Positions 3,548 through 56,625 of a DNA stretch of 64,000 bases are shown piece after piece. Below the pieces are notes generated by a model. That model was not told the origin of the DNA. It saw only the letters and a list, made by a program, of their open reading frames with translations, and ran no database searches. A program made the position numbers and the translations under genes. The stretch is from contig FIZI01000013.1 of NCBI GenBank assembly GCA_900016865.1, positions 1-64,000 on the forward strand, written 5' to 3'. Within the stretch, counting starts at the first letter, position 1. Each line of letters opens with the position of its first letter. Source of the DNA: an uncultured Clostridia bacterium (GTDB lineage: Bacteria; Bacillota; DTU014).

Positions 3548-5461
3548 GTGGCGCTGACAATCCGCGGAAAGGTAGTACTGCTATGCCTTATACTAATCGG
3601 TTTCCTTGTGGTACTAGGAGCGTCCACGATCCGTGTTATCGATGGCATTATTGACAATACCGAGACAGCCGTCGGGGTCCAGGACACTATGCACTTCCTC
3701 TTGCAGAAGGAGCAGGATCATCTGAGGTGGGTCGCTCAATTGAGCACCTCTATTCTTGAAGAGAGGCCGTTTACAGGAGAACTCGATCCTACTAAGTGTT
3801 CGTTTGGCCGCTGGCTATACGAATATTTGGACTCGGACGAGTTTGATCTGCTGAGTGACGAGATGAAGGCCGTATTTGCGCAACTCGAGGAGCAGCACCG
3901 CGGCTTGCATGAGTCGGCTCACGGCATAGTAGAGCTTGCATTGGCATCAAGTTCAACGGCGGTTTCCGATGAGACCGAGCCTGTGCACAGTGACTGGCAC
4001 GACGAGGCGACCGCGCTGTTCACCGGTACCACAACTGTACATGTTGCAGCTATAAGCGAACTGCTGGGACTTGTGAATGATCACCTCGGATTGCAGGTAG
4101 ATGCGACCATGAACTACGCTAAAGACTCCGCACGCGGGTCGTTTATGTTCATGGTCGCACTCACGGCGCTCGCTGTTGCGGTAGGGATCGGGATAGCATG
4201 GGCTGTGTCCGGCAGCATATCGCGTTCGCTGCGCCATGCGATTAGCATGGTCGAGGACCTCTCTGAGGGTGAGGGAGACCTGACACGTAGACTCGACGAG
4301 TCTGGATCGGATGAGGTGTCTCAACTGGCTAGGCACTTCAATAGGTTCCTCGCTAGGCTGGCTGACATGGTCTCGGAGATCCGCAGATCCGCGAGTGAGG
4401 TAGAAGAGGAAACGATTCTGCTAGCGGACTTGGTCAAAGAGCAGTCAGAGCAAGCTGTTTGGATATCTGAAAAAATGGTGGAGGTTACAGACGGCGTGCG
4501 GCAGCAAACAACTGGAGTGCTTGAGTCCAGGTCGGCCATGGAACAGCTTGCTCAGGCGATCAGTCAGATAGCTACCGGAGCTCAGCAACAGGCTGAGAGT
4601 GTCGATAGGACAGATAGGCTGGCTTCTTCGATGTTGGCGGACATATCGAGTGCTGTAGAAGCTATAGACCGGTTGGGCGGCGTTGTACAGACAAACGCAG
4701 ACACTGCAGCAGAGGGATACGAGGCAGTCAGAGGCGTGACTGCCGTCATGGGAGACATAATGAACGCAGTGTCAAAGATGCTGACAAGTGCAAATGAGCT
4801 TTACGAAGGCTCAAGACAGATTGGGCAAATCGTCGAGGTTATCAGCGAGATAGCTGACCAGACTGAGCTCTTGGCACTCAACGCTGCGATTGAGGCTGCG
4901 CGAGCAGGCGACCAGGGCAAGGGATTTGCTGTTGTTGCTGACGAGGTCCGGCGACTTGCAGAGAGATCCAGTCAGTCCACAAAGGAGATCGCTGGCATCG
5001 TCACACGCTTGATCGAAGTGGTAGACTCCACTATCGAAGCTGTTAGGCTGAGTGAGCGATATGCTACTGACGGGACTGAGAGAGCTGATCGGGCCAGCGC
5101 GTCTCTTGCAGAGATTAGAGCAGGAGCCACTGATGCAGGCGAGCAGGTCAAGGATCTGCTGCAACTGGCTTCGAGGCTGGATGAGCAAAGCAGGGCTGTT
5201 GGAGAAGCTATGTTTGACGTTGCCTCCATCACCGAAGAGACCAGTGCCTCGGTACAAGAGATGGCTGCGGGAAGCGAGGAAGTCGTGCGTTCTGTTGAAC
5301 AAATATCAACTGTTGCAGAGCAGACTGGGGCTGCAGCAGAGGATGTAACCGGGGCAACAGAGATGCTGAGCGAGGCCTTTAGAAAGATGTCCGGATCAGC
5401 CGCAGAACTGGCAGCCGCAGCAGAACACTTGAGAGGCTTGGTCGGCAAATTTGAGATCTAA
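3548..5461 (+). CDS. Methyl-accepting chemotaxis protein with extracellular CZB-like domain
   Basis: This is a membrane chemoreceptor that would signal through CheW/CheA to flagellar motors. The AGGAGGG at 3533-3539 selects GTG at 3548 (637 aa). A first membrane segment is at about residues 9-29 and a second at about 197-222. Between them lies a CZB-like zinc-binding domain: a His in HLRW, then CSFGRWL, then the [12 protein letters not shown] pair of histidines. After the second membrane segment come a HAMP domain (about 225-280) and a long methylation and signalling helix. The hairpin tip has the conserved [20 protein letters not shown] and [14 protein letters not shown] sequences. No other chemotaxis gene is nearby. 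CZB domains are usually cytosolic, so the position between membrane segments is unusual. Confidence 0.93.
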
Positions 5462-5534
5462 GAGAGGGCGAATGAGCCTATATGGACATTCTGACCTAAC
5501 TTCCCGATGTGCGTTTCAGTTGTAGGCTATCGCG

Positions 5535-5543
5535 CATAGGATA
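5535..5543 (+). promoter_or_regulatory. Possible sporulation-type -10 before the first tiny peptide
   Basis: CATAGGATA matches the CATANNNTA form of a sigma-K -10 box and lies 30 bases before the start of the 38-residue peptide. I could not find a matching -35 AC element at the right distance, so this is weak. Confidence 0.25.
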
Positions 5544-5572
5544 TCACGGAATCGCACTTAGGGGGTGACAGA

Positions 5573-5689
5573 ATGCCAGAAGAGAGAGATCCAGGAGGAT
5601 TCTTTGGCAGCAGACAGGCATGGATTATATTCCTGATTCTGATCCTTCTGCTGATGGGTACCTGGGGCGGGCTATTCTTCGGTGTGTAG
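5573..5689 (+). CDS. Tiny single-pass membrane peptide, 38 aa
   Basis: A GGGGGTGA ribosome-binding site (5561-5568) precedes ATG at 5573. The product has a short charged head (MPEERDPGGFFGSRQ), then one hydrophobic segment (AWIIFLILILLLMGTWGG) ending in LFFGV. Its size and layout resemble the small YjcZ-like sporulation membrane proteins of Bacillus, but I cannot prove membership. It is a paralogue of the next small gene at 5912: both end in a membrane segment with I/VLILLLMGTWG, and 19 bases of DNA coding for this are identical. Function unknown. Confidence 0.7.
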   Translation: MPEERDPGGFFGSRQAWIIFLILILLLMGTWGGLFFGV

Positions 5690-5751
5690 ACTGGACGGCA
5701 GGACCCTGCACCTACTGGCAGCCACCTCTGAGGTACGCTTGACTGGCGATG

Positions 5752-5783
5752 CCGTGAGTCCCGGCATATGCCGGGACTCACGG
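5752..5783. terminator. 32-bp perfect palindrome after the first tiny peptide
   Basis: The arm CCGTGAGTCCCGGCAT (5752-5767) is followed at once by its exact complement (5768-5783), giving a 32-bp perfect palindrome. RNA from it could form a long hairpin. There is no U-tract after it, so it may be a 3'-stabilising structure, a weak terminator or a protein-binding site. Confidence 0.5.
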
Positions 5784-5911
5784 TGACCGCATGACTGGCT
5801 GTCTTTCCATAACCACGTTAACTACGTTGCAGTGCGCTTATCAGTACTAACTCGCAAGCAATATCTGCAACATGACTTGTTGCAAAGACAGGCGAGGAAG
5901 GAGGCGCGGTA

Positions 5912-6046
5912 ATGGGCTGGGGTGTTGATTCAGCCGGTGGGAAGTCTGGAGGCAAGTGCGGCGTGTTTTGGCCCTTCAGAGAGGTTTGGATTGTGTTCTT
6001 GGTCTTGATTCTCTTGCTGATGGGTACCTGGGGTTTTGGTTTTTAG
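5912..6046 (+). CDS. Tiny single-pass membrane peptide, 44 aa
   Basis: AAGGAGG at 5898-5904 sits seven bases before ATG 5912. The product starts with a Gly-rich head containing one Cys (GGKSGGKCGVFWPF), followed by a membrane segment (VWIVFLVLILLLMGTWGFGF) and an immediate stop. It is the longer paralogue of the peptide at 5573. Both have excellent ribosome-binding sites and their own downstream palindromes, which argues that both are expressed. A sporulation or envelope role is a guess based on resemblance to YjcZ-like peptides. Confidence 0.7.
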   Translation: MGWGVDSAGGKSGGKCGVFWPFREVWIVFLVLILLLMGTWGFGF

Positions 6047-6072
6047 GTGAGATCTGAACCGTGGGTTACTCA

Positions 6073-6094
6073 GGGCACCGTCATGACGGTGCCC
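6073..6094. terminator. 22-bp perfect palindrome after the second tiny peptide
   Basis: GGGCACCGTCA followed directly by its complement forms a 22-bp perfect palindrome 26 bases after the stop codon. It is followed by ATTTGC, a poor U-tract. It is the counterpart of the palindrome at 5752-5783 but has a different sequence. Confidence 0.5.
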
Positions 6095-6228
6095 ATTTGC
6101 ATTCCTGACTTACGACAGACGTGTGTTATTGCTCGATCCGTACAGGCAGATTTAGGACAGGCTTTGACTGCTGGAGCATCGGTCTGGGAAAGAGTCTTTG
6201 AGGCGACGTGCCTTCACCTGCTGCTTCC

Positions 6229-6612
6229 TTAACTGCGGCCGGTTCTGTCACGTTTTCTACGATCGGTCTCGCGACAGTACTCAATGAACCTCTCTACTGC
6301 AGAACGGCCTTCGGGCGAGAGCTCCGGGATAGCTTCCAGTGCCAGGTCAACCAAGGGATCGCGTTCCTCGGAGTGAGCACCTCCACGGGAGTCGGTATGG
6401 CTGCTGACATCATCAACGCGGCCAAGAAGGTAATCTACAGAAACTCCCAGCACAGATGCAATCCGGTCGAGCATCTCTACGTCAGGCCTGCGATACTCGC
6501 GCTCATAACCAGACAGCGTGCCTGCTCTGATCCCGAGGGCCTCGGCCAGCTGGGCTTGAGTCCATCCTTTCCTCCTGCGGGTACGCCGAATTCTCTCACC
6601 AAGAGACCTCAA
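6229..6612 (-). CDS. XRE-family transcriptional repressor
   Basis: This is a cytoplasmic DNA-binding protein of 127 aa. GAGGAG lies about ten bases upstream of the TTG at 6612; an in-frame ATG further out (6645) has no such site. The Cro/C1-type helix-turn-helix covers about residues 5-60 (RIRRTRRRKGWTQAQLAEAL, then TLSGYEREYRRPDVEMLDRI), ending with VSVDYLLGR. The rest is a short C-terminal region that may form a dimer surface. It is divergent from a second small XRE gene and shares with it an intergenic region that carries two copies of the same operator-like repeat. This is the arrangement of a phage-like or SinR-like switch. Confidence 0.88.
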   Translation of the reverse strand: MRSLGERIRRTRRRKGWTQAQLAEALGIRAGTLSGYEREYRRPDVEMLDRIASVLGVSVDYLLGRVDDVSSHTDSRGGAHSEERDPLVDLALEAIPELSPEGRSAVERFIEYCRETDRRKRDRTGRS

Positions 6613-6670
6613 TAGACGATCACTCCTCAGACAGTAATATATCATATCTTGGCTATAGGGAAACTTGTGT

Positions 6671-6722
6671 TACGCGAAACGCTCACAAAACCCTTGACAT
6701 AAGCGAAACGCTTACATACAAT
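6671..6722 (+). promoter_or_regulatory. Sigma-A promoter with two GCGAAACGC operators
   Basis: TTGACA (6694-6699) and TACAAT (6717-6722) are separated by exactly 17 bases and drive the rightward small regulator. The spacer is almost filled by an inverted repeat TAAGCG-AAA-CGCTTA (6700-6714). A second copy, with GCGAAACGC at 6674-6682, lies 29 bp upstream, just before the -35 and within the region that should hold the divergent promoter. A repressor bound to these sites could control both directions. Confidence 0.75.
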
Positions 6723-6760
6723 GGAATTGGGCTTAGCAATTGGTTAATGGAGGTGATATG

Positions 6761-6955
6761 ATGTACTTCGGAGACCGTATCCGGAAGTTGCGGCTTGAGC
6801 GAGGGCTTAAAGCCAAGTTCGTTGCGGAGAAGCTGGGCCTTTCGCCAAGCCAGTACAGCGACCTGGAGCACAACAGAAAGAAGCTCACAGCCGACCTCAT
6901 CGTCAAGCTAGTCGAAATACTGCGTGTATCTCCGAACGATGTGCTCTATGACTAG
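6761..6955 (+). CDS. Small XRE-family regulator
   Basis: This 64-residue protein is little more than a helix-turn-helix domain (FGDRIRKLRLERGLKAKFVA, then SPSQYSDLEHNRKKLTADLI, ending VSPNDVLYD). GGAGG at 6749-6753 gives a seven-base spacing to ATG 6761; the adjacent ATG at 6758 is also possible. It is transcribed from the strong promoter at 6694-6722, whose spacer carries an operator-like repeat, so it is probably repressed by itself or by the divergent XRE protein. It is followed after about 40 bp by the GH94 phosphorylase gene, with which it may share a transcript. Confidence 0.85.
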   Translation: MYFGDRIRKLRLERGLKAKFVAEKLGLSPSQYSDLEHNRKKLTADLIVKLVEILRVSPNDVLYD

Positions 6956-9433: not shown

Positions 9434-9967
9434 CTATCTAGGAGGTATGCATATCAGGTCACCCACCTGTATCACGTTGGGATCGGAGATCTGCGGGTTG
9501 GCATTGATGAGGCTGTTGAGCGAGACTCCGAACCTCTGCGCGATCAGGAACAGGGTATCTCCAGCCCTTACTTGGTAGATCGTTCCGCCTGGGCACGGAG
9601 GCTGACCAGGTGAAGGAATGCAGATCACCTGACCTATCCTGAGCCTTTCGGGATCGATCCCTGGGTTTGCTCTGAGTATTGCTTCTACTGTTACTCCGAA
9701 CCTACGAGACAGAGCGAAGATCGTGTCGCCACTTCTGATCACGTATGGGAATCCCCCAGGGCACGGGCCCGGTGGCGGAGTAACCGGAATGCAGATCACC
9801 TGGCCGATTATCAGGTTTCCTGGGTCAACTCCCGGATTGGCTGCCACTAGAGCATCTATCGTTGTGCCAAAGCGTTGTGCGATCTGAAAATACGTATCTC
9901 CCGGCCTGATTCTGTAGAGGAAGCCCCCAGGGCAGGAAGGCATCTGACGAGTGTCGTTGAAGTCCAT
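9434..9967 (-). CDS. Triple LysM protein
   Basis: The 177-residue product consists of three LysM repeats at about 17-60, 76-118 and 133-176, each running from a YxIRPGDT-like start to an IGQVICIP-like end and separated by Pro/Gly/Cys linkers (CPGG in each). LysM domains bind N-acetylglucosamine in peptidoglycan. There is no classical signal peptide, as in several spore-coat LysM proteins such as SafA-like proteins, so a coat or cortex-interface role in the mother cell is plausible but inferred. AAGGGGG selects ATG 9967 over the overlapping GTG at 9979. A CATATAAT box lies a few dozen bases upstream, resembling sporulation-sigma -10 elements. Confidence 0.85.
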
Positions 9968-10123
9968 ATGAGACTTCACCCCCTTCTTCGGACGTCTGTC
10001 ACTTCATTATATGTCCGTAAGTGCGGGGGTCACCGGTCTTAAGAGATATCGTGCCCTTGTCGAAAAGCCAATGGCACAGGCGGGCAGACATACTCTCCAC
10101 TGCACAGGCCGAAGTCAGCTCTG

Positions 10124-10909: not shown

Positions 10910-12187
10910 ATGCTCGACATCAACCTGATTAGGCAAGACCCGGAGACCGTAAGGCAAGCTCTCCTCAAGCGAAATGTCTCAGTTGACTTCACAGAGCTGC
11001 TTCAATGGGATTCTGAGCGGAGGGAATTGATGAAGAAGGGTGACGACCTCCGCGCCAGACGGAACAAGGCCTCCGACGAGATACCTGCGATGAAGCGGCG
11101 GGGTGAAGATGTGAGCGCTGTTCTCAGTGAAATGAAGGCAGTGTCCGATCAGATCAAGGACATTGAGTCGCGGCTTTCAGATATAGAGATGAAGATCAAG
11201 CAGTTCATGGATGGCCTGCCCAACATACCTGATGATGATGTGCCCGCCGGAGGCAAGGAATGCAATACGGTAGTTCGTGTGTGGGGCGAGCAGCCCAAGT
11301 TTGACTTCGAACCAAAGGATCATATGGAACTCGCAGTATCCTTGGGGCTCGTAGACTACGAGCGTGGCGCCAAGCTTGGAGGAAGTGGGTTTTGGGTCTA
11401 TACAGGGCTTGGTGCGAGACTCGAGTGGGCACTGCTAAACTACTTCGTACAGGATCATATCAAGAACGGCTATGAGTTCTTGCTTCCACCTCACATTCTC
11501 ACCTACGAATGTGGGTATACCGCGGGACAGTTCCCGAAGTTCGAGGAAGATGTCTTTCACCTCAAAGCGGATGAGGGACGCGGTTTTCAGCAGTTCCTTC
11601 TCCCAACCGCAGAGACTGCTCTGGTCAATTTGCACAGAAACGAGATAATCCCAGAGTCGGAGTTGCCAAAACGCTACTTCGCATATACCCCATGCTATCG
11701 CAGGGAAGCAGGGAGCTACAGGACTCAGGAGAGAGGCATGATCCGTGGGCACCAGTTCAACAAGGTCGAGTTGTTCCAATACACCAAGCCTGAGGATTCG
11801 AGCGACGCCCTGGAAGAGCTGGTCGCCAGGGCTGAAGCGCTAGTACAGGGGCTTGGGTTGCACTACCGTGTGTCAAAACTCGCTGCTGAAGATATCAGTG
11901 CATCCATGGCAAAGACCTACGATATCGAGGTCTGGATACCGAGCATCAATGAGTACAAGGAAGTCAGCTCGGCATCTAACGCTAGAGATTATCAGGCACG
12001 CAGAGGTGCCATAAGGTTTAGGCGAGAGGATACGGGCAAGACCGAGTTCGTCCACACTTTGAACGCTTCCGGATTGGCAACAAGCAGATTGTTCCCCGCG
12101 ATTCTCGAACAAAACCAACAGGCTGATGGAAGCGTTGTGGTCCCGGAGGTGCTTCGGGAGATAGTCGGTACAGATGTCATACGGTGA
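10910..12187 (+). CDS. serS: Seryl-tRNA synthetase
   Basis: This class II synthetase charges tRNA-Ser with serine. Residues 1-105 form the long antiparallel coiled-coil arm that contacts the tRNA extra arm (MLDINLIRQDPETVRQAL at the start). The catalytic domain holds motif 2 (YRREAGSYRTQERGMIRGHQ) and motif 3 near the end (LNASGLATSRLFPAILE). At 425 aa it has the normal length. AAAGAGGTG precedes ATG 10910. It is followed after about 100 bp by a radical SAM gene with its own ribosome-binding site. Confidence 0.97.
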   Translation: MLDINLIRQDPETVRQALLKRNVSVDFTELLQWDSERRELMKKGDDLRARRNKASDEIPAMKRRGEDVSAVLSEMKAVSDQIKDIESRLSDIEMKIKQFMDGLPNIPDDDVPAGGKECNTVVRVWGEQPKFDFEPKDHMELAVSLGLVDYERGAKLGGSGFWVYTGLGARLEWALLNYFVQDHIKNGYEFLLPPHILTYECGYTAGQFPKFEEDVFHLKADEGRGFQQFLLPTAETALVNLHRNEIIPESELPKRYFAYTPCYRREAGSYRTQERGMIRGHQFNKVELFQYTKPEDSSDALEELVARAEALVQGLGLHYRVSKLAAEDISASMAKTYDIEVWIPSINEYKEVSSASNARDYQARRGAIRFRREDTGKTEFVHTLNASGLATSRLFPAILEQNQQADGSVVVPEVLREIVGTDVIR

Positions 12188-55917: not shown

Positions 55918-56625
55918 ATGCTGGGCGCTTTGACTGCCGGCGCTGCCCTGCTCTTGAGGGGCTTGTCACTGCTTGTATCATATGTTACAGGGAGCAACGC
56001 TTTTCCGAAACCACTTACAGAAGAGGAGGAGAGAGATTATCTAGCGAGAAGAGATCAGGGAGACGAGGACGCCCGGAACACACTCATTGAACGCAACCTT
56101 AGACTGGTCGCTCACATAGTCAAGAAATTCGAAAACACTGGAGAGAGCTCAGAGGACCTTATCTCAATAGGCACGATAGGATTGATCAAAGCAATTCGCA
56201 CATTTGATCAGAGCAAGAACACCAGGCTGGCGACATATGCAGCCAGGTGTATAGAGAATGAGATCCTGATGTACCTGCGGGCCACAAAAAGGATCAAGAG
56301 CGAGGCAATGCTCCACGACCCCATTGGGTCGGATAGAGAGGGCAATGAGATCAATCTCATGGACATTCTTGAGGCCAAGGACGGGTCGGTGGCAGAAACA
56401 GTAGAGAGCCGATTCGAAGAGCAAAAGCTAAGGGAGAAGCTCAAGTGTCTGAGCCCTAGAGAACGTAAGGTAATCGAGCTGCGCTATGGCCTGTCTGACT
56501 GCGAGTCACAGACTCAGAGAGAGATTGCCAAGATTCTGAACATTTCCAGGTCATATGTATCACGCATCGAGAAGCGGGCGATCTCGAAGCTGCTCAAAGC
56601 CATGAATGCAGAAGGTTATTGGTAA
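55918..56625 (+). CDS. sigK: RNA polymerase sporulation sigma factor K (pro-sigma-K)
   Basis: This late mother-cell sigma factor turns on coat and spore-release genes. GGGAGGAG selects ATG 55918 (235 aa). A hydrophobic pro-sequence of about 20 residues (ALLLRGLSLLVS) precedes the conserved YVTGSNAFPKPL junction, so it is made as an inactive membrane-bound precursor. Region 2 has NLRLVAHIVKKFENTGE, DLISIGTIGLIKAIRTFD and NTRLATYAARCIENEILMYL; region 4 has LSPRERKVIELRYGLSD and the helix-turn-helix TQREIAKILNISRSYVSRIE. The gene is uninterrupted (no skin element). SpoIVB, which triggers processing in model species, is at 62565. Confidence 0.96.
   Translation: MLGALTAGAALLLRGLSLLVSYVTGSNAFPKPLTEEEERDYLARRDQGDEDARNTLIERNLRLVAHIVKKFENTGESSEDLISIGTIGLIKAIRTFDQSKNTRLATYAARCIENEILMYLRATKRIKSEAMLHDPIGSDREGNEINLMDILEAKDGSVAETVESRFEEQKLREKLKCLSPRERKVIELRYGLSDCESQTQREIAKILNISRSYVSRIEKRAISKLLKAMNAEGYW

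Follow-up and report, generated by a model that had tools for sequence, protein, structure and literature searches.

Tandem tiny membrane peptide genes in a Clostridia genome belong to a multi-copy family of spore-forming Bacillota, probably under sigma-K control

Do two reading frames of 38 and 44 codons, lying in tandem in the genome of an uncultured Clostridia bacterium, represent genuine genes, and if so, what would such tiny membrane proteins do? The pair, termed A and B here, is located near one end of the 64-kb stretch of DNA that was analysed (the window; Table 1). An initial annotation of this stretch had reported both frames, their good ribosome-binding sites, a shared C-terminal tail and 19 identical coding bases, and each of these is readily visible in the sequence: the Shine-Dalgarno elements are strong, the C-terminal segment is common to both peptides, and the identical bases read TGCTGATGGGTACCTGGGG.

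Coding status and age of the pair

A and B are real coding genes, beyond chance open reading frames. Searching their own genome (G000) with B returned A and two more copies, on C5 and C33. Inspection of reading frames and ribosome-binding sites gave four copies in G000 (A, B, C and D) and four in G001 (A1 to D1), the sole genome of the same taxonomic family returned by the search with B. In G001, an A-type frame is followed by a Gly-rich, Cys-containing B-type frame in the order and orientation of the window, and the pair is flanked by the window's own neighbours, namely the helix-turn-helix, GH94 and SafA-like genes and the gene at 10910. Copy C has matching flanking genes in both genomes, as judged from the listed protein starts, and D and D1 were matched by sequence, not synteny. 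Over the four ortholog pairs, 26, 19 and 83 differences fall at codon positions 1, 2 and 3, respectively (p = 3e-13), and dN/dS is ~0.07 for A, ~0.13 for C and ~0.05 for D, with dS not computable for B; the orthologs are under purifying selection. It is the two further copies in the same genome, the four in G001, the synteny and the third-position bias that raise A and B above chance. A conserved frame and a bias toward synonymous change were the very features on which the initial annotation had staked its proposal, and both are borne out by the G001 orthologs. The same cannot be said of the fairly recent duplication that it had read from the 19 shared bases: since the A-B order and the neighbours are identical in G001, the duplication preceded the divergence of the two genera. 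The shared bases fall within the most constrained codons.

Each gene is a compact unit, made up of a strong Shine-Dalgarno element, a single hydrophobic helix and a palindromic hairpin behind. Both palindromes resemble transcript-end hairpins, and only the one behind B scores terminator-like. No other perfect palindrome of at least 20 bp occurs in the 64-kb window. Separately, two genes of helix-turn-helix type, arranged head to head and pointing away from each other, occupy the interval between A/B and the GH94 gene.

Table 1. Features of the window, and of other family loci (L numbers)
Feature	Position	Strand	Basis or remark
Putative sigma-K -10 of A (CATAGGATA)	5535..5543	+	-35 weak; kept as CATACGATA in G001
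Shine-Dalgarno of A (AGGGGGTGA)	5560..5568	+	Sequence; same letters in G001 ortholog
ORF A, membrane peptide of 38 aa (MPEERDPGGFFGSRQAWIIFLILILLLMGTWGGLFFGV)	5573..5689	+	G001 ortholog, dN 0.10 vs dS 1.46
Perfect 32-bp palindrome behind A, probable transcript-end hairpin	5752..5783	.	No T-run
Shine-Dalgarno of B (AAGGAGG)	5898..5904	+	Sequence
ORF B, membrane peptide of 44 aa (MGWGVDSAGGKSGGKCGVFWPFREVWIVFLVLILLLMGTWGFGF)	5912..6046	+	G001 ortholog in matching order
Perfect 22-bp palindrome behind B	6073..6094	+	Terminator-like
HTH_3 gene	6229-6645	-	Pfam; syntenic in G001
Second helix-turn-helix type gene	6740-6955	+	Judged by eye only
SafA/ExsA-family LysM spore coat assembly protein	9434..9979	-	TIGR02899 over cut-off; syntenic neighbour in G001
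sigK, sigma factor proposed as family driver	55942..56604	+	TIGR02846, 350.8 bits, over cut-off
Longer NP[FY][TS]LFLILILLL type	L035 3007-3216; L039 3217-3435; L073 1205-1339; L075 672-839		
YbaB-like block	L003, L035, L067, L077, L080, L081, L134		
Large NAGPA/copper amine oxidase protein	L037 1650-4601; also L062, L097, L109, L117, L154, L178		Pfam (L037)

A small-protein family across the Bacillota

Beyond the two genera, A and B have many relatives: membrane peptides of 20-50 residues that spore-forming Bacillota encode in multiple copies and that make up a large, as yet unregistered family. A 17-row profile, with matches taken at E<=0.01, was run against an even sample of 399 genomes from across the phylum. 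It found members in 107 of them, with up to 11 copies per genome and many tandem arrays; at most 19 candidates per genome were scored for these counts, so that further copies may have been missed, and E-values are rough for hydrophobic peptides this short. Named carriers include Desulforamulus putei, Desulforamulus aquiferis, Desulforadius tongensis, Thermosediminibacter litoriperuensis, Thermovorax subterraneus, Fervidicola ferrireducens, Orenia metallireducens and two Natroniella species, besides many MAGs. Loci were gathered with a degenerate DNA pattern, and the small frame then had to pass the profile at E<1e-4; pattern matches in Pelagibacteraceae, Bacteroidetes and other non-Bacillota were discarded, as they contained no small frame that did so. 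The 121 distinct members thus collected have a median length of 33 aa (range 20-77). Behind very variable heads comes a nearly constant core, FL[IV]LILLL, with GD or GT next in most cases. The family signature, F-L-[IV]-L-I-L-L near the C-terminus of a tiny frame with a Shine-Dalgarno element, is present in A and B. Hairpin arms of at least 7 bp lie behind 70 of 119 family members, compared with 4 of 119 in shuffled sequence.

That these peptides form a new small-protein family, as had been surmised from the pair alone, agrees with this distribution and with the databases: Pfam, NCBIfam, PHROGs and the PDB hold no significant match, and no relevant paper emerged when the literature was searched for the core string. 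No Rfam family matches positions 5400-6700 of the window, a scan that would miss an antisense antitoxin RNA, of the kind overlapping type I toxin genes, if it lay outside Rfam. Nothing places the peptides among phage holins: there is no significant PHROGs match, and the neighbours are bacterial. Tiny genes are readily missed in annotation, and this family is present in about one quarter of the sampled genomes of the phylum yet absent from Pfam and NCBIfam. A second, longer protein type bearing NP[FY][TS]LFLILILLL has the family core in common, and its genes lie within or close to the arrays of tiny genes; the one example scanned, from L035, has no Pfam or NCBIfam match.

A survey of family loci revealed no universal partner gene. 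Among Thermosediminibacter relatives, cotJB/cotJC lie close to the tiny gene, with a CotJC-type gene in seven loci from a smaller number of genomes; in L038, Pfam identifies CotJB (PF12652) and a CotJC-type Mn-catalase downstream on the same strand. Next to the window pair are chemotaxis receptor and GH94 genes, not a coat operon, and the SafA/ExsA-family gene is 3.4 kb away. Such cotJ and safA neighbours fit a role in the coat, short of proving it. Two further arrangements recur. In one group of genomes, the tiny peptides form part of a conserved block together with a YbaB-like gene, a putative AIR-synthase/HypE relative (by eye) and two proteins, of ~165 and ~175 aa, for which neither Pfam nor NCBIfam has a match. 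In the Thermosediminibacter relatives, the tiny gene has ahead of it, at a syntenically conserved position, a large protein combining NAGPA (phosphodiester glycosidase) with a copper amine oxidase N-terminal domain.

Promoter signal and sporulation genes

Unseeded word counts upstream of family members brought out CATANNATG/A and TGTAAC, and a seeded two-block model of 95 non-redundant upstream regions resolved a -35 element, tTGTAACa, and a -10 element, CATAnnATG, the latter most often ~30 nt ahead of the start codon. The combined pattern AC-N16/17-CATAnnnTR occurs in 46 of these 95 regions, as opposed to 1 of 381 regions upstream of long frames at the same loci (p = 4.5e-36), and in 2 of 95 on the reverse strand. 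Sigma-E and sigma-K promoters have the -10 element in common and are told apart by the -35 element, which has C for sigma-K and T for sigma-E (Eichenberger et al., PMC517825); replacing AC by AT, for a sigma-E-like -35, reduces the matches from 46 to 1 of 95. Two-part consensus scans for sigma-E, sigma-F, sigma-G and sigma-A promoters found no enrichment in the family upstream regions, where single sigma-G-like elements are mildly enriched alone, not paired. The window itself encodes sigK. In its lineage, a CATAnnnT -10 element is retained 37-42 nt upstream of A, A1, B1, C and D, and none is recognisable upstream of B, nor of C1 and D1 in G001; -35 elements are weak, and the window's own promoters fall below the family consensus. 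As judged from these upstream signals, the family is probably switched on late in spore formation, as YjcZ is in Bacillus.

The distribution of the family points the same way. Of the 399 genomes, 335 have the sporulation gene spoIVA; among the 107 with a family member the number is 105, and the remaining two genomes are 75% and 61% complete (Fisher p = 1.2e-7, relatedness ignored); as most sampled genomes sporulate and family members are related, neither this co-occurrence nor the promoter counts are independent observations. The family is nearly restricted to genomes with sporulation genes. Conversely, with at most 19 candidates scored per genome, a member was detected in only 105 of the 335 spoIVA-positive genomes, and the peptides are therefore not essential to sporulation in general.

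Proposed role and relation to YjcZ

For A and B we infer expression, membrane location, topology and a role at the coat interface; they are, with good probability, sigma-K-driven, late mother-cell, single-pass membrane peptides acting there in a YjcZ-like niche. Sigma-K would turn on its genes late in sporulation, in the mother cell. A typical member would form its own transcription unit, comprising a sigma-K promoter with its -10 element ~30-40 nt before the start codon, a strong ribosome-binding site, 20-50 codons and a hairpin. AlphaFold2 predicts a single helix (residues 11-36, mean pLDDT 70), and the charges of family members, +2.6/-1.6 in the N-terminal part and +0.45/-2.0 in the C-terminal part, favour an N-in, C-out topology. 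The peptide would most likely span either the outer membrane of the forespore or the membrane of the mother cell, keeping its N-terminus in the mother-cell cytoplasm and passing its short tail, acidic or Gly-rich, to the other side. Given sigma-K control, the head of a peptide in this orientation would be cytoplasmic in the mother cell and, for a peptide residing in the outer forespore membrane, on the side of the coat. There, the variable head, often rich in Gly, Tyr or Phe, may tether the coat or aid its assembly, filling the niche that YjcZ peptides appear to fill in Bacillus. This role is suggested by the geometry, by the cotJ and safA neighbourhood and by the precedent of SscA, a small spore coat assembly protein of B. 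subtilis that is sigma-K-dependent, has ~28 aa and affects coat assembly. If so, the YjcZ-type spore layer would extend past Bacillus. The promoter and motif signature gives a means of locating the remaining members, and these genes offer deletion targets for learning how membrane peptides under sigma-K serve the coat.

How closely, then, is the family tied to YjcZ itself? The yjcZ gene belongs to the sigma-K regulon (PMC517825), and the sigma-K pattern was found upstream of 14 of 28 YjcZ genes from the taxonomic family of Halobacillus, at spacings of 15-17. The YjcZ family model, TIGR01732 (tiny_TM_bacill), has a curated cut-off of 21.35 bits. In NCBIfam scans it is matched by neither A nor B nor the other profile members. 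Of the 399 genomes, 8 exceed its cut-off and none of these carries the A/B family (chance probability 0.08). In the taxonomic family of Halobacillus, where 23 of 26 sampled genomes have 4-12 TIGR01732 genes, the reverse search for the A/B family gave nothing convincing (best E 0.01). The initial proposal of a YjcZ-like peptide stands as regards size and architecture, sigma-K-type promoters and spore-forming hosts, and falls as regards TIGR01732 membership, with homology to YjcZ unproven. One conceivable account, which we rate somewhat below even chances, is that these sigma-K-driven microproteins arose separately from YjcZ and came to serve the same purpose where the outer forespore membrane meets the coat, the two families forming a convergent, interchangeable class missed by databases. 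The opposite account, that the family is a diverged YjcZ branch with common ancestry and function whose sequence drifted past the curated model, is more doubtful still. It draws on the likeness in size, architecture, multi-copy habit and promoter type, and on a local similarity of the two profiles (hhalign score 20.4, probability 31%, E 5e-4) that none of 150 permutations of all columns reached. Against it, permuting the core alone equalled that score in 23 of 150 trials, such that hydrophobic composition may explain the similarity; cross-profile scores are only ~6 bits, and TIGR01732 finds nothing over its cut-off in G000, G001 or any other family-positive genome.

Type I toxins and holins are small hydrophobic peptides of similar general form. 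A holin-like or toxin-like peptide that permeabilises membranes or lyses the mother cell at the end of sporulation would accord with the small hydrophobic products, strong Shine-Dalgarno sites and tandem arrays, and late mother-cell timing from sigma-K promoters would suit it. Such a function is unlikely in view of the dedicated sigma-K promoters, the coat gene neighbours, the conserved acidic or Gly-rich tails and the locus's want of any phage-family or Rfam match. Least probable is that the peptides are accessory subunits of a membrane enzyme, without a link to sporulation and merely common in such genomes: many bacterial single-pass microproteins are membrane-enzyme subunits or regulators, and the window pair does sit beside chemotaxis receptor and GH94 genes instead of a coat operon, but the family has no constant partner gene, is multi-copy, carries sigma-K-type promoters and is accompanied by spoIVA in every complete genome that has it.

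A peptide at the coat interface remains the preferred reading, and two known systems place it. The CotJABC spore coat operon adjoins family genes in several genomes; its proteins are neither single-pass peptides nor bearers of the family core, and are neighbours only. Like the A/B family, YjcZ proteins are tiny (25-45 aa), with an often Gly-rich head and, close to the C-terminus, a single hydrophobic stretch that ends in Gly, and are encoded in several copies per genome behind sigma-K-type promoters. The A/B family differs in its core sequence, which falls below the TIGR01732 cut-off, and in its hosts, the named carriers being Desulforamulus, Thermosediminibacter, Orenia, Natroniella and relatives, with no overlap with the eight YjcZ genomes in the 399-genome sample. 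As the profile comparison is suggestive at best, the family is not filed as YjcZ; by analogy, it probably works like YjcZ.
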